Notes under the pieces: model-generated | Database searches by the model: none | The model's input: the letters and a program-made list of their open reading frames with translations, nothing else | What the model was told of the DNA's origin: nothing | Program-made: the position numbers and the translations under genes | Part shown: piece by piece, positions 4,464-40,234 of the stretch | Numbering within the stretch: the stretch's first letter is position 1 | How the letters are laid out: every line of letters begins with the position of its first letter | Source: Citrobacter sp. FP75 | Lineage (GTDB): Bacteria > Pseudomonadota > Gammaproteobacteria > Enterobacterales > Enterobacteriaceae | Direction of reading: 5' to 3' | NCBI RefSeq assembly: GCF_018342065.1 | Contig: NZ_JAFDOE010000001.1 | Span: forward strand, 1,054,001 to 1,118,000 | DNA: 64,000 nucleotides

Positions 4464-4490
4464 ACCAGCCAGCTCACGCTGACTGGTTTT
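4464..4490 (+). terminator. Terminator of ychH
   Basis: CCAGCCAGC / GCTGACTGG with a four-base loop and one mismatch, followed by TTTT. It runs up to the stop codon of the convergent cytochrome c1 gene. Confidence 0.6.
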
Positions 4491-5302
4491 CAGCTCGCTT
4501 TATTTTTGTGCGAGCGAGACCGGATGCGCAGCAGTAACGCTAATAGCGCTAAAACAACCGCCAGATATCCCATCACGTACATTCCCTGATGTTTTCTTGC
4601 TGCTAACTGCGGATCGGCCACCCATGCCAGAAACGCGGTGACGTCGCGCGCGTACTGTTCTTCGGTTTGTGGGATATGGGCTTGCCCGGTCCAGGTGATT
4701 TCACCGTCTGCCAGTGGTTTTGGCATATTGATAATCCCGCCGGGGAAATAGCGGTTAGCCTTAAGCTCGGGATCGTCAGGGAGATAGCCGGTCAGCAGCG
4801 CATAAATATAATCAGCACCGTTGTCGGTATAGGGAACGAACGCATCGAAGATAAACTGCGGAAACCCGCGATCGTAGCTTCGCGCCCGCACGATATAGCT
4901 CAGATCCACCGGTAGCGCGCCATTGTTGAGGTATTTGGCTTCCTGCTCGTTCAGATAAGGAGAGGCGAAAACATCGCTCAGGGTACCGTCCCGTTCACTG
5001 GGCTGGCCATCATCTTCAACTGTCGTAAACACGTAGCCACTGGCCAGTGTTTTGGCTTCGGCCTGCGTGAGATGCGGCCCTCCGGGTTGGGTCAGTTCTC
5101 TAAAGGTGAGATATTTCATTGCGTGGCAGGCCCGGCATTTTTCTTCGTAAACCTGCAAACCCCGACGCAACTGTTCGGTGTCATATTTGCCGTTCACACC
5201 GCTAAATGTCCATGGCTGTTGGGGCGGAAGTTGTGCACAAAGCGTGTTACTGAAGAACAAACTCAGGCCCAGGGCAGCAAAGGTTAACCATCGTCCCATC
5301 AT
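4490..5302 (-). CDS. petC: Cytochrome c1 subunit of a cytochrome bc1 complex
   Basis: The c-type haem subunit of ubiquinol:cytochrome c oxidoreductase, which passes electrons from the Rieske cluster to a soluble periplasmic carrier. The 270-residue protein has a signal peptide (about residues 1-23, cleavage after LCA), the haem site C56-R-A-C59-H60, a likely axial Met193 in INMPKPL, and a C-terminal anchor at about 240-262 followed by basic residues. This is the compact c1 layout seen in beta- and gamma-proteobacteria. It begins one base after the cytochrome b stop codon and is the last gene of the series; its stop abuts the ychH terminator. Covalent haem attachment would need the Ccm system, not seen here. 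Escherichia and Salmonella have no bc1 complex. Confidence 0.93.
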   Translation of the reverse strand: MMGRWLTFAALGLSLFFSNTLCAQLPPQQPWTFSGVNGKYDTEQLRRGLQVYEEKCRACHAMKYLTFRELTQPGGPHLTQAEAKTLASGYVFTTVEDDGQPSERDGTLSDVFASPYLNEQEAKYLNNGALPVDLSYIVRARSYDRGFPQFIFDAFVPYTDNGADYIYALLTGYLPDDPELKANRYFPGGIINMPKPLADGEITWTGQAHIPQTEEQYARDVTAFLAWVADPQLAARKHQGMYVMGYLAVVLALLALLLRIRSRSHKNKAS

Positions 5303-5303
5303 G

Positions 5304-6476
5304 TTAGTCCTGTTTTTCCAGTAAGCGTCGGCACGGCATCACAATCAAAAACCATGCGAAATAAATAAGCGTTGAAAGCTGAGAAGCGGCGCGGATCCAG
5401 CCCTCTTCATTACTGAAACCGTCCACCAGATCGGGTCCGACCAGCGCTTTTGACCCCAGCCAGCCAAGAAAGAGGGCGTTGCCGACCCAAATCCAAAAAC
5501 CGGCTTTAACGAGCTTACTCAAGTTGCGAAACCGCGCGCGGGAGGTATCCAGCCAGGGTAAGAAATAGAAGATCAATACCGAGGCGCACATGGCGACAAT
5601 GCCTGCCAGCTCACCGGGAAAACAGCGCAGAATGGAAAAGAAGGGCAAAAAATACCACTCGGGCGCGACGATGGCTGGCGTGACCGTCGGGTCGGCGGGG
5701 ATGAAGTTATCAGCACTGCTGAGATAGTGCGGCGCAAAGAATAAGAACCAGGCAAACAGCATTAAAAACAGCGTCAGTTTGAGGGCATCGCGCTCGGTAA
5801 CGCGAAAATCAAACAGTAAACGTTGCGACTCGCGGGCGGTAAACGTTTTTTTCATCGCATGGGCGAAAGCCGACTGGACGGTGCGCACATGCCATATCGT
5901 CACCGCGACAATGGCGAAGGGAATAATAAAGTGCAGCACATAAAAACGGCCCAGCGTCGGCGTGCCGGGAGTATATCCCCCGACCAAAAAGGTATACAGC
6001 GTATCGCCGACGAACGGTATTGCGCGGGCGAAGCTGGTGATGACCGTGGCGGCCCAATAGCTTTTTTGCCCCCAAATCAGGCTATAGCCGAGAAATGCGG
6101 TGATCATCAGTAACACATACAGCGTCACGCTGATGGTCCACATCTTCAGATACGGTTTACGGTAAACGTTGTAATACATCGCGCGAAAGATATGCAGATA
6201 GCAGGCGAAGAAGAAAAGTGAAGCGCCAATGGCGTGCAGGTTACGCACCAGCTCACCGTGCCTGACCGTGCGCATAATATGAACAATGGAATCAAACGCG
6301 GATCCTGCCGTGGGCACATAGAACATCGCCAGCACGATACCGGAGAGAATTTGCACGCCCAGCATGACCAGTAAGATGATACCGACGGCAAAGATCCACA
6401 CGCCGGCCACCGAGCGGGGGAACGGAAGGCGAAATTGAACATGGCGCAGGGGCGTGGTAGGGGACGTGGCGTTCAT
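5304..6476 (-). CDS. petB: Cytochrome b subunit of a cytochrome bc1 complex
   Basis: The membrane core of the bc1 complex, holding haems bL and bH and both quinone sites. It is 390 residues, the full-length bc1 type and not the split b6f form. Haem ligands appear as two pairs, H81/H95 and H182/H196, in the expected second and fourth helices, and the Qo-site motif PEWY is at 272-275. About eight hydrophobic segments can be counted. It follows the Rieske gene with one intervening base and precedes cytochrome c1 with one base between, giving the classical fbc/pet order. All key residues are present, so the complex should be functional. Confidence 0.95.
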   Translation of the reverse strand: MNATSPTTPLRHVQFRLPFPRSVAGVWIFAVGIILLVMLGVQILSGIVLAMFYVPTAGSAFDSIVHIMRTVRHGELVRNLHAIGASLFFFACYLHIFRAMYYNVYRKPYLKMWTISVTLYVLLMITAFLGYSLIWGQKSYWAATVITSFARAIPFVGDTLYTFLVGGYTPGTPTLGRFYVLHFIIPFAIVAVTIWHVRTVQSAFAHAMKKTFTARESQRLLFDFRVTERDALKLTLFLMLFAWFLFFAPHYLSSADNFIPADPTVTPAIVAPEWYFLPFFSILRCFPGELAGIVAMCASVLIFYFLPWLDTSRARFRNLSKLVKAGFWIWVGNALFLGWLGSKALVGPDLVDGFSNEEGWIRAASQLSTLIYFAWFLIVMPCRRLLEKQD

Positions 6477-6477
6477 A

Positions 6478-7026
6478 TCAGACCTCTTTTGCGCCGAGGC
6501 GTACGCTCAGACCATCGGCGGCCAGAGTATAATCGGGGATCGGCAGATTCGCCGTGGCCGGGCCTCGCGTCACGCGCCCGGAGGTATCAAATTCTGACCC
6601 ATGACACGGGCAAATCCAGCCCTGTCCGCTGGGATTGGCGTTTGGCACGCATCCGGCGTGCGGGCAGTGGCCCTGAACAATCAGCCACTGTGGATGTGCC
6701 GCTGTGACCCGCTCGCTATCCGCCTGCGGATCGAGCAATCGTCGGGCATCGGCCTGCTGCGCTGCCGCTACCTCGTCCGGCGTGCGGTGGCGAATCAGGA
6801 TCAGTTTTCCCTGCCAGATCCGTTTCACCGTCTGGCCAGCCGCCACTCCTGCGAGAGAAACGTCTACAGGCTCATTTTCTGCCACTGTTTTATCGTCCGG
6901 ACCCAGCGCTGAGATCAGCGGCCAGACTGCGGCTGTAACGCCTGCGGCACCGACAAATTTTGTCAGCTTGCACAGGCAGTCGCGCCGCTGGGTGTGGACT
7001 GCCTCGCTATCTGTTTTTTTATTCAC
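6478..7026 (-). CDS. petA: Rieske iron-sulfur subunit of a cytochrome bc1 complex
   Basis: Carries the high-potential [2Fe-2S] cluster that takes one electron from quinol at the Qo site. From a GTG start at 7026 it is 182 residues; AGAGGA lies upstream, and a longer frame (to 7101) would only repeat sequence overlapping the copper-protein gene. The twin arginines at 14-15 (RRDCLCKLTKFVGAAG) before a hydrophobic helix are a Tat-type uncleaved anchor, as usual for Rieske proteins. Cluster ligands are C121-P-H123-A-G-C126 and C139-P-C141-H142, giving the two Cys, two His and the disulfide pair. It lies 25 bases after the pseudoazurin stop. Confidence 0.95.
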   Translation of the reverse strand: MNKKTDSEAVHTQRRDCLCKLTKFVGAAGVTAAVWPLISALGPDDKTVAENEPVDVSLAGVAAGQTVKRIWQGKLILIRHRTPDEVAAAQQADARRLLDPQADSERVTAAHPQWLIVQGHCPHAGCVPNANPSGQGWICPCHGSEFDTSGRVTRGPATANLPIPDYTLAADGLSVRLGAKEV

Positions 7027-7051
7027 CGCCGTTATCCTCTTATGGTTGCTG

Positions 7052-7492
7052 TTACTGCTTCTCAATGCGGTTATAAATATCCTGAAAGCGTTTATCGGCA
7101 AGGCCAGGGGCTTTAAACGCGCGGTAGCTGTTGGGCAAAACGGCGTCGCCGACCTTGATCAGCATGATCATGCCCTGCGCGTAGTGCGGTGAACATTTGA
7201 TGCCGTAGAAACCGGCGGTGTCGTATTTGATTTCAATCTCTTCATCGATTTTGCCGATAAAACCGGGGTAACCGGCGGGGGAGAGCTCGGCAATTGAGGC
7301 CGCATTGTGGCTTTTGTGCTTGCGAACAAATTTCACGCTATCGCCCGGCTGGATCGCCAGATAATCCGGTTCGTAGACCATTGGTCCGCCGGTGCCACGG
7401 TTTTTCATCAGGACTTCGTAGGTTTGTGCGAAGGCCGTCGAGGTGAACGCGAACAGGCACAGGACGAGCAGATGTTGCTTAATACATTTCAT
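7052..7492 (-). CDS. Periplasmic type 1 copper protein, pseudoazurin-like
   Basis: A 146-residue cupredoxin with a clear signal peptide (cleavage near TAFA-QTYEV, residue 22/23). Copper ligands can be read as H62 (KSHNA) and C100-x2-H103-x4-M108 (KCSPHYAQGM), exactly the pseudoazurin spacing. Pseudoazurins are small periplasmic electron carriers, best known as donors to copper nitrite reductase and nitrous oxide reductase, and they can accept electrons from bc1. Position fits that role: 18 bases after the ABC ATPase gene and 25 before the Rieske gene. A function as partner of this bc1 complex is inferred. Amicyanin or plastocyanin-like proteins are less likely because of the ligand spacing and C-terminal extension. 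Confidence 0.9.
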   Translation of the reverse strand: MKCIKQHLLVLCLFAFTSTAFAQTYEVLMKNRGTGGPMVYEPDYLAIQPGDSVKFVRKHKSHNAASIAELSPAGYPGFIGKIDEEIEIKYDTAGFYGIKCSPHYAQGMIMLIKVGDAVLPNSYRAFKAPGLADKRFQDIYNRIEKQ

Positions 7493-7510
7493 AACGGTTC
7501 CTTGTGGTAT

Positions 7511-8332
7511 TTACGCCGGTCGTTGATAGCGGATGAAGCAACTCGCCTCATCGGGAGCGCGTTCGACAATCGCATCGATGCCAAACCAGCTGTTAAGATT
7601 TTCACGGGTGAAGACAGCCGCAGGACGGCCCTGCATCGCCAGGCGTCCGGCCGTCATCACCATGATGCGATCGCAGAACATCGCGGCATGATTCAGGTCG
7701 TGCAGGGCGGCAATTACGGTCAGTTTTTCGCGCTTGACCAGGTTAAGCAGGCCAATCTGATGCTGGATGTCGAGATGATTCGTTGGCTCATCCATCAGCA
7801 AGACCTGCGGCTGTTGCGCCAGCGCCCGGGCAATATGCAGGCGCTGACGCTCGCCGCCCGAGAAGGTATGCCAGCAGCGATGCTGGACGTGTTGCAGGGC
7901 GACTTTCTCCAGCATCGTCTGCACAATATCGTCATCGGTCCGCGACCACGGTGATAGCAGGCTTAACCACGGCGTGCGCCCGAGTGAAACGGCCTGGATG
8001 GCGGTCAGACGCTCGCTGGTTTCTGCCTGCTGCTCAACCAGGGCGACCTTTTGCGCCAGATGGCGTCGGGAATAGCCGCGAATGTCTTTGCTGTCGAGCG
8101 AAACGCTACCGGCGGAGGGTTTGAGTAAACCGGCCAGCAGGGAAATCAGCGACGTTTTCCCTGAACCGTTGGGGCCGATAATGCCAACAAACTCTCCGGG
8201 CGCGACCTGAAAAGAGACATCATTGACGATGGCTTTGCCCTTCACCTCCCAGTGCAGGTGCTGCGCGCAGACCGCATGACTGGCCGTGTTTGCCGCGCGT
8301 AGCGGCGAGGTAAAACGTGGGTTAGCCGTCAT
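7511..8332 (-). CDS. ABC importer ATPase, BtuD/FecE family
   Basis: The nucleotide-binding subunit of a type II (BtuCD/FecCD-like) importer, 273 residues. Walker A is GPNGSGKTS, the signature is FSGGERQR, Walker B is VLLMDEPTNHLD and the H-loop is AALHDLNHA. An N-terminal stretch of about 20 residues before the ABC core is not typical and could mean a later start. The ATG overlaps the permease stop by four bases (ATGA), indicating coupled translation. The cobalamin riboswitch in the operon leader makes a corrinoid the likely substrate, but sequence alone cannot separate it from siderophore or haem transporters of the same family. Confidence 0.92.
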   Translation of the reverse strand: MTANPRFTSPLRAANTASHAVCAQHLHWEVKGKAIVNDVSFQVAPGEFVGIIGPNGSGKTSLISLLAGLLKPSAGSVSLDSKDIRGYSRRHLAQKVALVEQQAETSERLTAIQAVSLGRTPWLSLLSPWSRTDDDIVQTMLEKVALQHVQHRCWHTFSGGERQRLHIARALAQQPQVLLMDEPTNHLDIQHQIGLLNLVKREKLTVIAALHDLNHAAMFCDRIMVMTAGRLAMQGRPAAVFTRENLNSWFGIDAIVERAPDEASCFIRYQRPA

Positions 8333-9393
8333 TTGCTCGGATTCCCTCGGATCAAAATAATCGAAAATGCGGGAGCGCCAACCAGCGCGGTGATAACGCC
8401 AATGGGCAGCACCTGCCCCGGCAGCAAGGTACGTGAAATGACGTCCGCGACAATAAGAAAGATGGCGCCAATAAGGGCGCTGACGGGCAATAAGCGGTGG
8501 TGCTGATTGCCCACCAGTAACCGCGCGGCATGCGGGATAACCAATCCGACAAAGCCAATGGCCCCGACAATCGAGACCATAATGGCGGTCATCCCCGTCA
8601 CCGCAGTAATCAGGACGCCACGGGTGCGTTTAACTGGAATGCCCAGCGAAGCCGCCGACTCTGCGCCAAATGAAAATGCGTCCAGATGGCGGGCGTAGCA
8701 AAAGCAAACGATGATGCCGACCAGCGCGGTTGGGATCGCCAGCACCACGTCGGGCCAGCGTACGCCGCTCAGATTGCCGAGTAGCCAGAACATAATGCCC
8801 CGCGCCTGCTCGGCATTGGCTGAGCGGGTAATGACGAGCGAGGTAATGGCATTAAACAGCTGCGAGCTGGCAATCCCGGCCAGAATAATTTGCGTGGTGG
8901 CAGAGCCGTGTTTTCCTCTGGCCGCCACGGCTAACAGCGCGACAAACAGAAACGCCGTCAGCGCGCCGATGAACGCACCGAGTGACATGCTGATAATCCC
9001 CGCGCCCAGCCCGGTCAGTGCGATCAGCACCGCCCCCGTCGACGCCCCGGCCGAGATCCCCAGCAGATAAGGCTCGGCCAGCGCATTACGCAGTAAGGAT
9101 TGCAGCACCACGCCGGAAACCGCCAGACAGGCACCGCAGCTGGCAGAGACCAGCGCGCGGGTCAGACGGTAATTCCAGATGATCCCGGCATCTAGCGCGT
9201 CTACCGCATATTGGCTGCCAAACAGGTGGTTTGCCAGCGTGCGGGTGACATGCTGCCATGGGATAAACGTCTCACCAATGGAAATCCCGGCCAGCAGCAC
9301 CCCGCACATCACCACGCTGACCCACAGGCTGTGCAGCAGTGCCCGTTGGGTAAACTGACTCATCGCCCGACGCGTCCTGCGTAATTCGCTCAT
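8329..9393 (-). CDS. ABC importer permease, BtuC/FecCD family
   Basis: A 354-residue integral membrane protein with about ten hydrophobic segments, the BtuC/FecD topology. Recognisable family stretches are LAVSGVVLQSLLRNALAEPY, LLGISAGAS and IGFVGLVIPHAARLL (the coupling region contacting the ATPase), with a C-terminal LPIGVITALVGAPAFSIIL. AGGAAAG lies upstream of the ATG at 9393; a second Met at residue 11 is also possible. It sits 65 bases after the binding protein gene and overlaps the ATPase gene. It is expected to move substrate from the periplasmic binding protein into the cytoplasm. Confidence 0.93.
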   Translation of the reverse strand: MSELRRTRRAMSQFTQRALLHSLWVSVVMCGVLLAGISIGETFIPWQHVTRTLANHLFGSQYAVDALDAGIIWNYRLTRALVSASCGACLAVSGVVLQSLLRNALAEPYLLGISAGASTGAVLIALTGLGAGIISMSLGAFIGALTAFLFVALLAVAARGKHGSATTQIILAGIASSQLFNAITSLVITRSANAEQARGIMFWLLGNLSGVRWPDVVLAIPTALVGIIVCFCYARHLDAFSFGAESAASLGIPVKRTRGVLITAVTGMTAIMVSIVGAIGFVGLVIPHAARLLVGNQHHRLLPVSALIGAIFLIVADVISRTLLPGQVLPIGVITALVGAPAFSIILIRGNPSK

Positions 9394-9458
9394 TGTTTAC
9401 GGCTTTCCTGAGTGCGAAAGCGCGTGATGCTCGCGCACGGCATCACGCGCGATAAGGA

Positions 9459-10517
9459 TTAGTGAGAGGTCTGCGGATGTGCCAGACCGTACTGCACCAG
9501 CGCATCGGCGAGTTTTTCCAGCCCGTCAAGGGTTCTGATGCCAGCATTCATGGTTTGCACATCTATCACCGGTAGATGGTTGTCTTTTACCGCCGGGATC
9601 AGTTGGGTGACCGGGTCAGATTTGAGGTATTCCATTTTGACCTTCCAGTCATCCGCCGGGAAACGACGACGGCCCATTTCGCCGAGAACGATGACCGACG
9701 GGCTGGCTTTAGCAATAGTTTCCCAGCCGACCGTCGGCCACTCCTCGGCGGAATCAATGACATTTTTCACCCCGAGGGTTTGTGCGATCCACGCGGCGGG
9801 GCCAAATTTACCGGCGACATAAGGATCAAGCTGCAGGTCGGCGCTGGAGAACCAGAAGACGGCAGAGACGTTATTGTCCATCCCGGTGATTTTCGTTTTT
9901 GCTGCAGCCTCGCGGGCCTTGAGGCTGGCTATCAGCTCGTCGCCTTTGTCCTGCACATCGAAGATTTTCGCCAGATCGGCGACTTCCTGGTAGACCATGG
10001 CGATATCAAACATGCCTTTACGCACGCCATCGCCGCCGTCTTCGTTGTCTTTTGCGCAATCGGCAGGGGCGGTGTAAACCGGAACGTTAAGTTCGCTGAA
10101 TTGTTCGTAAGAAGCAACCGTACCGGCAGGGCCAATCTGCCATTCAAACTGACTGGCAACCAGGTCCGGTTTTTTGGCGATAATGCCTTCAAAGCTGGGG
10201 ATGTTTTGTGCGATAACCGCAATGTTGCTGTTTGCAGCCTGGAACTGTTCCGGTAGCGGACCAAACCACAACGATGTTCCGACCACGCGATCGGCCAGCC
10301 CCAAAGAGTAGAGGATTTCAGTGCTGTTCTGACCCACGGTGGTCACGCGCTGCGGGGCTTTATTAAAAGTAATATCCCGACCGCAATTTTTGATGGTCAG
10401 CGGATATTGCGTCTTCGCCGCTGTAGCCATATTACTGGTCAGGAAAAGTGCTGCGCCAGTCAGCGCCAGAAGTGAATATTTGCGGTAAGAAGAGGTAATA
10501 TCAGAATACATTATCAT
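9459..10517 (-). CDS. Periplasmic substrate-binding protein of the BtuFCD-type importer
   Basis: A 352-residue class III (helical backbone) binding protein. It has a basic N-terminus and hydrophobic signal segment ending near TAAKTQYP, then the family opening NCGRDITFNKAPQRVTTVGQ and STEILYSLGLADRVVG, typical of BtuF/FecB/FepB proteins. The C-terminus retains VIDVQTMNAGIRTLDGLEKL. Two Met codons occur in a row of three codons (10517 and 10511); the GGGA ribosome binding site is only three bases from the first and nine from the second, so 10511 may be the true start. First gene of the series and directly controlled by the riboswitch leader. Corrinoid binding is inferred from the riboswitch. 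Confidence 0.9.
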   Translation of the reverse strand: MIMYSDITSSYRKYSLLALTGAALFLTSNMATAAKTQYPLTIKNCGRDITFNKAPQRVTTVGQNSTEILYSLGLADRVVGTSLWFGPLPEQFQAANSNIAVIAQNIPSFEGIIAKKPDLVASQFEWQIGPAGTVASYEQFSELNVPVYTAPADCAKDNEDGGDGVRKGMFDIAMVYQEVADLAKIFDVQDKGDELIASLKAREAAAKTKITGMDNNVSAVFWFSSADLQLDPYVAGKFGPAAWIAQTLGVKNVIDSAEEWPTVGWETIAKASPSVIVLGEMGRRRFPADDWKVKMEYLKSDPVTQLIPAVKDNHLPVIDVQTMNAGIRTLDGLEKLADALVQYGLAHPQTSH

Positions 10518-10571
10518 TGTCCCGTTGATGCCAGAATCTTAGCGTCTGGTCATTGTTTATTTCGCGGGACA
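10518..10571 (-). promoter_or_regulatory. Hairpin hiding the ribosome binding site of the ABC-bc1 operon
   Basis: On the minus strand TGTCCCG (10571-10565) can pair with CGGGACA (10524-10518), which contains the Shine-Dalgarno GGGA and touches the ATG. An inner stem CCAGA/TCTGG near 10531-10549 stacks inside. This is a plausible translational expression platform for the riboswitch upstream. Pairing was found by eye; no energy was computed. Confidence 0.5.
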
Positions 10572-10725
10572 GGCACATGACGATAGATGACATCTAATCA
10601 TGAAATTCAGACAAACTAATATGAAAATAAATCATATTGTTGCCGGTTTGATCAGGAATCAATTTTGTTCATTCGTCAAATAAATCACCCCATGGACCAT
10701 CCCGTCCACTCAATGTATAAAACCA

Positions 10726-10926
10726 TGACAGCAGGTCTCCTGGCTCACGGTAATCAGAATATCGGCCTTCCCATAAAAAATACTTTACAGTGACCTGCAG
10801 TGAATTATCACTGCACAAGGATATTCAGCATCCGCTTACAGTTGCGGGGGCAGCTATGGCATAAGATTGAAATAATCCGCACCATATTCCGTTTCAAAAT
10901 AATAAAAAGGTTCTGAAATACTGTCG
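10726..10926 (-). promoter_or_regulatory. Cobalamin riboswitch
   Basis: Read on the minus strand, the region has the conserved cobalamin aptamer parts in order: a GGTGCGGAT block near 10885, GCTGCCCCCGCAACTGTAAG (about 10855-10833), a GTCACTG block near 10793, TGGGAAGGC near 10770, and the B12 box GAGCCAGGAGACCTGC ending at 10731. GACAG at 10925-10921 and CTGTC at 10731-10727 close stem P1. All marker segments of Rfam family RF00174 are recognisable. It lies about 210 bases before the binding-protein gene and points the same way, so adenosylcobalamin binding should lower expression of the importer and, through readthrough, the genes behind it. Confidence 0.95.
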
Positions 10927-11060
10927 CCGAGGACTGTAACGGCATCCCATTATCACGTCAACAGCTTGAATCAGTAGGTATGTTTGTCTAATTTCGATTA
11001 AATATATAAAAATCAATAAGATGTATTTTTGCCATTAACCTGGATTTAACATTGATAACG

Positions 11061-11101
11061 AATATAGAAAAACTAAACGAGAATTATTTGATGTTGATCA
11101 A
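11061..11101 (-). promoter_or_regulatory. FNR-dependent promoter of the ABC-pseudoazurin-bc1 operon
   Basis: TTGAT-GTTG-ATCAA at 11088-11101 matches the FNR consensus in all ten conserved bases. On the minus strand TATATT (11066-11061) follows after 21 bases, so a start near 11053-11054 places the FNR site at about -40.5 to -41.5, the class II activator position. It lies downstream of the GNAT gene and upstream of the riboswitch, giving a leader of roughly 540 bases. The box is palindromic, but only the minus-strand reading has a gene in front of it. Confidence 0.7.
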
Positions 11102-11183: not shown

Positions 11184-11702
11184 TTAAGATTGTTTTTCCA
11201 TATGCACGATTTGCTGTTCACCACCTTCGTCTGAAAAAACGGTGAAATGATGACGCAACCAGAACTGATACCCTCCGGGTAAAAAGTGATGAGTATGAAG
11301 ATAACGCACTTTATATTGCTGACGATGGCAAAATTGTTCTGCCAGCGCGACTAATTGGCTGCCAATGCCTTGTCTACGGTAATCCAGTTCGACATAACAA
11401 CGACAGATTTCAGCCGTTTCGGACAACAAATAACGTCCTTTTAATGTGGGTATTCTGTCATCGTACTGGCATACAGCCAGCGTGGCGATAAGTTGCTCTT
11501 GCGTATTCCAGACGCCGAGTAACAGATTTCTTTGCTGCTGAATATACTGGTGATTGATGCCAAATACATCTTCATGTGGATGGGGGAGTGACCTGTTGGC
11601 ACTAAAGTAAAGATTCAAATGGTGGATAATAAACGACTGAACGGCTGGGATATCCGCCTCGGTAATTTCGCGAAAGATATACGTAGAATTAGAGTTCATC
11701 AC
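11184..11702 (-). CDS. GNAT-family N-acetyltransferase of unknown substrate
   Basis: A 172-residue protein with the GNAT fold: an N-terminal FREITEADIPAVQSFI segment, a central strand, then the acetyl-CoA loop YVELDYRRQGIGSQLVALAE (R/Q-x-x-G-x-G/A type), and a C-terminal YQFWLRHHFTVF segment. The substrate cannot be told from sequence. ATG codons at 11702 and 11699 are both possible. It is not part of the E. coli dauA-ychH neighbourhood, so it belongs to the inserted block. The FNR-type promoter of the bc1 operon begins after its stop codon, so a functional link with that operon is uncertain. Confidence 0.8.
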   Translation of the reverse strand: MMNSNSTYIFREITEADIPAVQSFIIHHLNLYFSANRSLPHPHEDVFGINHQYIQQQRNLLLGVWNTQEQLIATLAVCQYDDRIPTLKGRYLLSETAEICRCYVELDYRRQGIGSQLVALAEQFCHRQQYKVRYLHTHHFLPGGYQFWLRHHFTVFSDEGGEQQIVHMEKQS

Positions 11703-29135: not shown

Positions 29136-29345
29136 TACCCATACCTCAAACGGGCTACCTCTTAATTGTCACTGGTGGGAGAGATCCCAGGCTGGGAGGA
29201 GTAGGAGGCGACAGAAGCGTGAAAAACCACATCTTTTTCACCGATGTTATGTACTCATTTGGGGTAATGATAAATTTTAAGCATTAATAATGACGCCTTT
29301 TCCTTTGATTTATATCAACTTACCCCCCGCTGTAAACCCTAATGT
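29136..29345 (+). promoter_or_regulatory. narX-narK divergent control region with FNR and NarL sites
   Basis: TTGAT-TTAT-ATCAA at 29305-29318 is a perfect FNR box, and TAATGT at 29340-29345 is a suitable -10; a start near 29353 puts FNR at about -41.5 for narK. TACTCAT at 29252-29258 and an inverted heptamer GGGGTAA at 29261-29267 form a 7-2-7 NarL site near -93. Further NarL-type heptamers TACCCAT (29136), TACCTCA (29142) and TACCTCT (29156) lie nearer to narX. The 340-base gap 29038-29377 holds no other gene. Confidence 0.85.
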
Positions 29346-30911: not shown

Positions 30912-31075
30912 TACCCCTTAATACCCACTTGTAAAGAATTTAACATTTGTATGAAGTGTGAATTTTAAAATATGCTTGAAAATCAAATGATTATTCACAT
31001 CATCAATATCCCACTTAGGGGGTATATAAAATTCAACCCCTCTTTTCCATCCCTGCCTGCCTTGATCGTTATCAA
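30912..31075 (+). promoter_or_regulatory. narG control region: distal NarL sites and FNR box
   Basis: TTGAT-CGTT-ATCAA at 31062-31075 is a perfect FNR box. NarL-type heptamers TACCCCT (30912-30918) and TACCCAC (30922-30928) lie about 190 bases upstream of the start expected from the FNR position, as at the E. coli narG promoter where IHF bends the DNA between. The gap 30770-31165 contains nothing else except the narK terminator. Confidence 0.85.
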
Positions 31076-39670: not shown

Positions 39671-39845
39671 TGGTGGTGGGGAAGGATTACTCAGCGCTAG
39701 GCGCTTCGCCCTTCGGGTCGTTGCCTGCGGCAACGCTTTCTCGCTACGCTCGAATCGAACCTTAGTCGAAGCTTCTCATCCTTCCCTGCATGGGCAGAAT
39801 ATGAAATAAAGTGCGTTTAGTAGAATGAGTGCTTTTTAGAAGTGA
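39671..39845 (-). repeat. rtT-type repeat unit downstream of the tRNA-Tyr genes
   Basis: The unit repeats the 3' end of tRNA-Tyr: TGGTGGTGGGGAAGGATT at 39671 against TGGTGGTGGGGGAAGGATT at 39846, with GAAGTGA before both, 175 bases apart. This is the layout of the E. coli rtT repeats in the tyrT operon. Inside is a stable GC hairpin near 39719-39740. No protein is predicted from it. Confidence 0.75.
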
Positions 39846-39930
<85 letters not shown>

Positions 39931-39967
39931 AGGGGTGTACTGATTTTTATAAATCTACCGGAATGAA

Positions 39968-40052
<85 letters not shown>

Positions 40053-40093
40053 ACGGGGTAAATTCATTGTGCTGCTAGCATCCTATAGTTAGA

Positions 40094-40234
40094 AGGATTA
40101 TTCGGAGCTAAAGCTGCTCACCCTTCGGGCCGTTGCCTGCGGCAACGTTCTCTCACTATCGCTCGAGTCGAACCTTGAAGTCGATGACGGCAGATTTGCA
40201 GTCAGCTCCCTTATGATCGCTCGGGAACCCCACC
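40094..40234 (-). pseudogene. Broken first tRNA-Tyr gene fused to an rtT repeat
   Basis: The minus strand from 40234 starts like the intact tRNA (GGTGGGGTTCCCGAGCG) and follows it to the variable arm and T-arm start, but has a changed D-loop, a mismatched anticodon stem (CTGA/TCTG) and anticodon GCA in place of GTA, and one base lost before the T-arm. After the shared AAGGTTCGA (40176-40168) it runs into sequence like the middle of the rtT repeat, with no T-stem, acceptor 3' strand or CCA. It sits directly behind the operon promoter, so it is the former first tRNA. Confidence 0.85.

Follow-up and report, generated by a model that had tools for sequence, protein, structure and literature searches.

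Among described systems, btuB stands under the control of a cobalamin riboswitch, a likeness to the cassette analysed here, and BtuFCD, like the cassette importer, is a class III ABC importer. The cytochrome bc1 complex usually forms part of chains in which pseudoazurin takes part in denitrification, and to our knowledge the Enterobacteriaceae, the textbook case of respiration without this complex, have none as a rule. In Paracoccus, pseudoazurin serves the denitrification reductases, according to the portions of two papers available to us (PMC5987163, PMC12848317). The Paracoccus-type bc1 complex matches the present locus in its three redox subunits and in their cofactor sites, with pseudoazurin as the carrier; however, in the cassette the bc1 genes are set in a riboswitch-led importer operon and cytochrome b falls in a separate clade. 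The locus was found in a stretch of 64,000 nucleotides of Citrobacter sp. FP75 (hereafter the window), and no description of its seven-gene operon was found in a literature search that covered its sources in part.

Organization of the importer-bc1 operon

Behind one leader, the minus strand of the window contains seven genes in the order substrate-binding protein (SBP), permease, ATPase, pseudoazurin, Rieske protein, cytochrome b and cytochrome c1 (Table 1), and each was found where, and on the strand on which, the first-pass annotation had placed it. From the SBP gene to the cytochrome c1 gene, successive pairs are spaced by 65, -4, 18, 25, 1 and 1 bases. The SBP gene shows a second ATG at 10511 and, because this is the start kept in relatives, the first one at 10517 is probably not used. 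Furthermore, the GNAT acetyltransferase gene adjoins the operon in 14 of the 16 carriers, including carriers in which the cassette lies away from the ychH-dauA site, although it does not clearly belong to the mechanism proposed below.

Table 1. Coordinates of the genes and leader elements of the locus in the window
Feature	Position	Strand	Remarks
FNR-type palindrome TTGATCAACATCAA	11088..11101	.	perfect match; upstream of operon
Cobalamin riboswitch aptamer, RF00174	10713..10940	-	79.6 bits; gathering score 31.5
Putative expression platform	10518..10571	-	possible pairing of TGTCCCG (10571-10565) and CGGGACA (10524-10518), covering the ribosome-binding region; inner hairpin
Substrate-binding protein, class III (Peripla_BP_2), EitA / F420-0-like	9459..10517	-	likely start 10511
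FecCD-type permease	8329..9393	-	Pfam and NCBIfam models
Importer ATPase	7511..8332	-	ABC_tran; 4-base overlap with permease gene
Pseudoazurin	7052..7492	-	signal peptide by eye; type 1 copper ligands His62, Cys100, His103, Met108
Rieske iron-sulfur protein	6478..7026	-	GTG start; TAT-signal domain
Cytochrome b	5304..6476	-	His81/95/182/196; PEWY 272-275
Cytochrome c1	4490..5302	-	CRACH 56-60; Met193
GNAT acetyltransferase, upstream of operon	11184..11702	-	Pfam

Pfam analysis of the redox genes showed Cytochrom_C1 (3.3e-68), Cytochrome_B (1.1e-51) together with its C-terminal domain, Rieske with a TAT-signal domain, and Copper-bind (1.9e-12), while the importer genes matched ABC_tran, FecCD (7.8e-88) and Peripla_BP_2 (3e-28). 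The three catalytic subunits with the ligands of haem b, haem c1 and the 2Fe-2S cluster, as well as the PEWY motif, predict a cytochrome bc1 complex, and the Rieske protein scores above the cut-off of TIGR01416 (Rieske_proteo). The copper protein has the type 1 His-Cys-His-Met ligands and its closest solved sequences are pseudoazurins; with TIGR02375 it reaches 101.9 bits, just below the cut-off of 109.85, and its Shinella relative passes with 133.8. All 22 cofactor residues checked are kept in the 16 carriers, with identical ligands for haem b, haem c, the 2Fe-2S cluster and copper, which agrees with the earlier description of a complete bc1 complex and a pseudoazurin with every cofactor residue present. 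The phylogenetic tree places cytochrome b in a clade by itself (100/99), separate from three bc1 complexes of other Enterobacterales and from Alphaproteobacteria, a grouping that is to be read with a warning of long branches.

The Peripla_BP_2 SBP, the FecCD permease and the ABC ATPase, encoded in a single operon, identify a class III ABC importer. The name BtuFCD-type, given to it in the first-pass annotation, was abandoned, since the NCBIfam models of BtuF, BtuC and BtuD gave 25.1, 212.4 and 128.5 bits, far below their cut-offs of 234, 334 and 281, respectively. Models of the EitABC and 'F420-0' importers (NF052484, NF052485 and TIGR03868/69/73) scored best, although the cassette proteins are below the cut-off in all of them. 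The predicted structure of the SBP, made to seek a BtuF-like fold, matched class III proteins broadly. The importer thus appears nearer to the EitABC/F420-0 models, BtuFCD-type is too specific a name, and its ligand is putative. Among importer relatives of 41-49% in Enterobacteriaceae, no cobalamin riboswitch was found within 1.5 kb in the 12 loci scanned.

Leader region and predicted regulation

The FNR-type motif TTGATNNNNATCAA occurs at three sites in the window versus a mean of 0.16 in shuffled sequences. The palindrome upstream of the operon and a TATATT at 11066-11061 fit a class II FNR promoter, with the spacing judged by eye. At the same place, the site is perfect in 10 of the 16 carriers, has at most one mismatch in 13, and is absent from the corresponding place in three carrier loci (L021, L023 and L114). 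L021 shows two SBP genes, with its FNR-type site between them. None of the 10 rhizobial-type plasmid loci examined for the site has it. By this motif and its retention in relatives, the operon is a predicted member of the FNR regulon.

A putative cobalamin riboswitch, above the gathering score of RF00174, is found at the operon in all 16 carriers. In one of the scans seven of eight carrier loci were positive, the sequence of the other (L077) ending before the element, which was found in other scans. The seven non-carriers of the same genus have two cobalamin riboswitch copies each, elsewhere in the genome. The putative expression platform folds with -24.1 kcal/mol (z -1.46) and, because 17 of 200 shuffles were as good, the fold alone is weak support for the switch; its arms are kept in some relatives only, in an alignment of 10 of the 16 carriers where the row of L112 is incomplete. 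Control by FNR and cobalamin, put forward in the first-pass annotation, is therefore matched by a perfect palindrome and an RF00174 element ahead of the operon, the control itself being predicted.

The same annotation had named independent promoters and a strong terminator between the ATPase and copper-protein genes as evidence against a single unit. A consensus scan found no minus-strand promoter-like or terminator-like site there, and all seven minus-strand terminator-like stems lie within genes; the scan totals are near chance (four promoters vs 6.4, and 12 terminators vs 8.2, sd 3.0).

Distribution of the cassette in Enterobacteriaceae

A cytochrome b match was found in eight of 392 Enterobacteriaceae genomes, and the other 384 have none. 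The same eight genomes contain the close importer (at least 77%), the other 50 importer matches being at 49% or below, and no split of importer from bc1 was found in this sample. Both halves thus occur together, in line with the claim of one conserved unit of FNR-type site, cobalamin riboswitch, bc1 complex and pseudoazurin. The comparative search for the seven-gene order, suggested along with that claim, showed it unchanged in all 16 carriers, whose cassettes occupy several places on the chromosome, and across dS above 1. Values of dN/dS were 0.021-0.154 wherever computable (six comparisons).

Between the seven genes, the pairwise distances are correlated (r 0.74-0.96). Furthermore, one genome of the same genus as the window (G006) has the cassette at a different site, and there Klebsiella copies are the nearest relatives of six genes out of seven; the remaining one, the Rieske gene, is nearest to Intestinirhabdus by a margin under one point. 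These affinities and the correlated distances suggest that the cassette moves whole; judged from these comparisons, it is conserved and horizontally moving. For positions 4490-10950 no close counterpart was found among E. coli genomes, and in the one E. coli record opened the ychH-dauA site is empty, because both genes lie only 54 bases apart. A plasmid origin was also considered and rejected: plasmid cytochrome c1 is below 60% identity in all 23 records, whose named genera we take to be all alphaproteobacterial. A sister lineage, represented by protein sequences, has a cytochrome c1 at 54-55% and a pseudoazurin at 67%.

Importer-pseudoazurin loci on rhizobial plasmids

Eleven plasmid loci were compared: 10 belong to Rhizobiaceae and one is labelled Roseateles and 'UNVERIFIED_ORG'. 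A riboswitch precedes the importer in 10 of them, and a pseudoazurin gene is directly behind the ATPase gene in five, the other six being without pseudoazurin; bc1 genes are beside the importer in none of the 11, within the 6-8 kb flanks read. The loci with pseudoazurin (e.g. Shinella sp. HZN7 pShin-01 and S. fredii NGR234 pNGR234b) show the same order as the cassette, of riboswitch, SBP, permease, ATPase and pseudoazurin, with identities across the five of 56-68% for the importer genes and 45-58% for pseudoazurin. However, they differ in having neither an adjacent bc1 nor an FNR-type site, and a SAM-dependent methyltransferase gene follows in both annotated Shinella loci. Among the plasmid pseudoazurin matches listed, at least 13 of 20 sit about 1.8 kb behind an SBP gene on the same strand, as compared by eye with the best 40 of 627 SBP records. 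A paper on this Rhizobiaceae locus was not found in the literature search, within the part of the sources it covered.

The copper protein belongs with the importer and bc1 is the addition, as read from gene order, because the plasmid loci have the importer with or without pseudoazurin and never an adjacent bc1. A seam between the ATPase and copper genes was rejected, since rhizobial loci keep riboswitch, importer and pseudoazurin together. Related genomes with the two halves apart were named at the outset as a ground for refutation; separate parts do exist, and were seen outside Enterobacteriaceae only, but the cut is between pseudoazurin and Rieske and not at the importer/copper seam.

Candidate electron acceptors and proposed role

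The acceptor survey covered 23 genomes, the 16 carriers and seven non-carriers of the same genus. Every one of the 17 genomes of the genus, among them 10 carriers, has a CCP_MauG protein, as does carrier G173; five of the 16 carriers lack it, and in four of these (G384, G073, G427 and G428) the class I cytochrome c search likewise gave no match. One COX1-family protein, which we take to be CyoB-like, is present in 15 of the 16 carriers and common to carriers and non-carriers, and a second, weaker match of about 755 residues, presumably a quinol NO reductase, in four (G002, G008, G016 and G081). Multicopper oxidases occur in all 23 genomes, and no extra one such as NirK is common to the carriers. 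The NosZ profile PF18764 matched nothing in the 23 genomes, a result that decides nothing, as a repeat over the 16 carriers also gave no match in the hoped-for controls, two S. meliloti megaplasmid records presumed to hold nosZ and two other rhizobial plasmids. Among CCP_MauG, COX1, multicopper oxidases and class I cytochrome c, no carrier-specific acceptor was thus found in the 23 genomes.

In two of the three Klebsiella cassettes the genes continue into ccm genes, and neither genome showed a CcmF other than the one encoded there, which looks like a dependency. The genome search for ccp, nirK and ccm, proposed at the outset, therefore gave a CCP_MauG protein in 11 of 16 carriers and ccm behind the operon in two Klebsiella, but no multicopper oxidase that marks carriers. 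The separate respiratory branch of the first-pass annotation was not sustained: among the families searched, no acceptor specific to the carriers was found, and the linkage fits a service role in uptake equally well.

We tentatively favour, at rather less than an even chance, a layered cassette in which electrons pass from bc1 to pseudoazurin and then to an uptake-linked periplasmic step. The inner layer, common to Rhizobiaceae, would combine a dedicated pseudoazurin with an importer that stands behind a cobalamin riboswitch and takes up a corrinoid or a related metal complex; the whole bc1 complex would be the second, in Enterobacteriaceae, and the cytochrome c maturation operon the third, in two Klebsiella. 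Transcription would be turned on by FNR without oxygen, and the riboswitch leader would be translated at low cobalamin. Transfer from quinol through Rieske/c1 to pseudoazurin is established chemistry of these families, and from this family knowledge quinol electrons would follow that path here. We hypothesize that the acceptor is linked to uptake, the simplest step being a reduction by pseudoazurin of an oxidised substrate, Co(III) corrinoid or metal complex, which would take place either ahead of binding or on the SBP.

Somewhat unlikely, in our view, is a small energy-conserving anaerobic branch, in which bc1 would pass quinol electrons through c1 and pseudoazurin to a reductase encoded elsewhere (e.g. 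the peroxidase Ccp), cobalamin control coming only from assembly behind the importer. The FNR-type site, the role of pseudoazurin in Paracoccus, the usual place of bc1 and the occurrence of CCP_MauG all fit it; the five carriers without CCP_MauG, the COX1-family proteins as we assign them and the multicopper oxidases found irrespective of carriage count against it. A nitrogen-oxide damage response is improbable: N2O would destroy cobalamin and open the riboswitch, and the cell would replace corrinoid and boost the electron carrier for periplasmic nitrogen-oxide reduction, which suits a rhizobial form that occurs in relatives of denitrifiers, but the carriers share no NirK-like extra. Least probable of all is chance co-transcription of corrinoid import and a bc1 chain that share a promoter and move together without functional coupling, which the rhizobial importers without bc1, more than half also without pseudoazurin, would allow, but which the lack of any split among the 392 genomes, the order kept over such divergence and at several sites, and the apparent ccm dependency all oppose.

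For the layered cassette, the specific form in which quinol electrons, by way of the blue copper protein, reduce the corrinoid or metal complex in the periplasm as it is imported, switched by cobalamin scarcity and anoxia together, is itself unlikely as it stands. If true, it would be a use of bc1 outside respiration and photosynthesis. The succession of importer, pseudoazurin, bc1 and, in two Klebsiella, ccm has the look of a chain of needs. Caution is also called for before the copper protein is labelled a denitrification carrier. A complete bc1 complex is present in a minority of Enterobacteriaceae genomes, where every carrier examined has it downstream of an importer led by a cobalamin riboswitch, and with this cassette one can ask directly by genetics whether the uptake of a vitamin or of cobalt can be served by electron transfer.

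Organization and control of the operon

The seven genes of the operon in the Citrobacter genome encode the substrate-binding protein (SBP), permease and ATPase of an importer, a pseudoazurin, and the Rieske protein, cytochrome b and cytochrome c1 of a bc1 complex. They are flanked by dauA-GNAT and ychH-pth, with spacings of 65, -4, 18, 25, 1 and 1 bases in SBP to c1 order. Because ychH and dauA are only 54 bases apart in one E. coli record examined, the operon is read as an added cassette. Elsewhere in the window, two tandem tRNA-Tyr genes are located at 39671-40223, with two RtT RNA matches around them on the same strand.

Features of the operon and its leader in the window
Feature	Position	Strand	Remark
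SBP	9459-10517	-	
Permease	8329-9393	-	
ATPase	7511-8332	-	
Pseudoazurin	7052-7492	-	
Rieske	6478-7026	-	GTG start
Cytochrome b	5304-6476	-	
Cytochrome c1	4490-5302	-	
Cobalamin riboswitch	10713-10940		Rfam, 79.6 bits
FNR-type palindrome	11088-11101		Perfect

The cobalamin riboswitch was found at the operon in all 16 operon-bearing genomes compared (carriers). The seven non-carriers of the same genus show two riboswitch copies each and the carriers three, but G006, G384 and G073 have two. Between the aptamer and the SBP gene, 10571-10565 could plausibly form an anti-Shine-Dalgarno pairing with 10524-10518, although the fold surpasses shuffles by a narrow margin only (z -1.46). The FNR-type site is perfect at the same place in 10 carriers and has at most one mismatch in 13 of 16, while none was found at the operon in K. 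indica or G073. In K. spallanzanii, Klebsiella sp. BIGb0407 and locus L112, a further site, a perfect one, is found 51 bases upstream. In Intestinirhabdus alba (L021, 4217-7038), the SBP gene is present as a tandem pair; the riboswitch precedes the first copy, and a one-mismatch FNR-type site falls between the two. Two further perfect sites are present in the window, at 29305-29318 and 31062-31075; by size and order, we take the genes behind them to resemble narK and narGHJI.

Conservation and distribution

Ten of the carriers are of the window's genus, its own genome included; the remaining six are K. spallanzanii, K. indica, Klebsiella sp. BIGb0407, Intestinirhabdus alba and two further Enterobacteriaceae. 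All 16 show identical gene order and strand. The first-pass annotation of a seven-gene operon with riboswitch, FNR-type site and complete bc1 was confirmed in the window. The 22 listed cofactor and motif residues are identical in all carriers. In six comparisons with the window, dN/dS across the seven genes ranges between 0.021 and 0.154 where dS was computable. The cassette lies in the dauA-pth interval in 11 carriers and at other places in five.

Of 392 evenly sampled Enterobacteriaceae genomes, eight have cytochrome b and 58 an SBP relative (E 1e-40 or better); SBP identity is at least 77% in the same eight genomes and at most 49% in the other 50. Among 394 genomes drawn from the order, c1 was matched at E 1e-30 in two, both of the window's genus, and in other families of the order three genomes show bc1, in distant forms only. 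Sister-lineage proteins (P0034/P0141 and P0035/P0140/P0310), with identities of 54-55% for c1, 67% for pseudoazurin and 71% for SBP, come from contigs that match in length and probably belong to the same operon. An SBP 75% identical to that of the window (P0309), on a 113 kb contig labelled Vibrio vulnificus, reflects either transfer or a mislabelled assembly.

Between-carrier distances correlate from gene to gene (r 0.74-0.96, seven genes). In G006, which is filed in the window's genus and has the cassette at a different site, Klebsiella copies are nearest for six of the seven genes, and for Rieske the Intestinirhabdus copy is nearest by a margin of less than 1 point; the cytochrome b tree agrees with this placement (97/88). 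From these comparisons, we conclude that the cassette transfers as one unit.

Cytochrome c maturation genes behind c1

In K. spallanzanii (L020, 11954-18032), the gene directly behind c1 encodes an ABC ATPase and occupies the ccmA position, and those after it match CcmB, a cytochrome c assembly protein (CcmC position), CcmE, CcmF, a redoxin (CcmG position) and CcmH. Klebsiella sp. BIGb0407 (L022, 11922-17974) shows the same frame layout, and its three scanned frames match ABC ATPase, CcmF and CcmH. This CcmF is the sole one found in each of the two genomes. The frames adjoining c1 in K. indica differ from the ccm genes, judged by layout only. Since cytochrome c1 requires a cytochrome c maturation system and ccm genes continue the operon, there is indirect evidence for bc1 being made and used.

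Importer loci on plasmids

Rhizobiaceae are the source of the best plasmid matches to the pseudoazurin. For at least 13 of the 20 matches listed, an SBP gene precedes pseudoazurin on the same strand at a distance of about 1.8 kb, going by a comparison by eye with the best 40 of 627 SBP records. Eleven plasmid loci were taken from the SBP search, ten from Rhizobiaceae and one labelled Roseateles and "UNVERIFIED_ORG". A cobalamin riboswitch precedes the importer in all except L168, pseudoazurin is directly behind the ATPase gene in five, and no bc1 genes turned up in the 6-8 kb of flanking sequence. In rhizobia, bc1 is encoded on the chromosome. Because five of these loci pair importer with pseudoazurin and none shows bc1 in the flanks, the pseudoazurin belongs with the importer and bc1 is the part added, in hosts without one of their own. 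The first-pass annotation is thus supported in part, as the seam it had set between the ATPase and pseudoazurin genes falls between pseudoazurin and bc1.

In the two annotated Shinella loci that have pseudoazurin, it is followed by a gene for a SAM-dependent methyltransferase, which in the one scanned has sub-cut-off resemblance to a corrinoid-protein-associated methyltransferase. By locus, such a gene is behind the importer cluster in L162 (11237-12034), L163, L164 and L168; in L162, L164 and L168, the three scanned, it resembles corrinoid protein-associated CpaM weakly and below the cut-off. In S. chiapasense (L167, 774-7374), the riboswitch-led importer adjoins zinc aztABCD and two genes for GTP-binding proteins, and S. 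fredii CCBAU 45436 has a second cobalamin riboswitch close to the importer (L165, 3215-3437).

Candidate electron acceptors

Comparison of the 16 carriers with the seven non-carriers revealed no acceptor marking carriers among CCP_MauG, COX1, multicopper oxidases and class I cytochrome c. All 23 genomes have multicopper oxidases, and two carriers and two non-carriers have additional ones; the family is not specific to carriers, though a member may still be the acceptor. CCP_MauG was found in 11 carriers and all non-carriers; in the COX1 family, a CyoB-like protein is present in all genomes but G073, and a second protein of about 755 aa in four carriers. Class I cytochrome c had no match in four carriers (G384, G073, G427 and G428). 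The importer is the only candidate pseudoazurin partner that accompanies the operon in every carrier examined, which favors, with modest confidence, a pseudoazurin serving an uptake-linked redox step.

No description of an operon joining importer, pseudoazurin and bc1 was found in the open-licence literature searched. The operon is a novel variant assembled from known parts, and its functional implication is unusual and testable.
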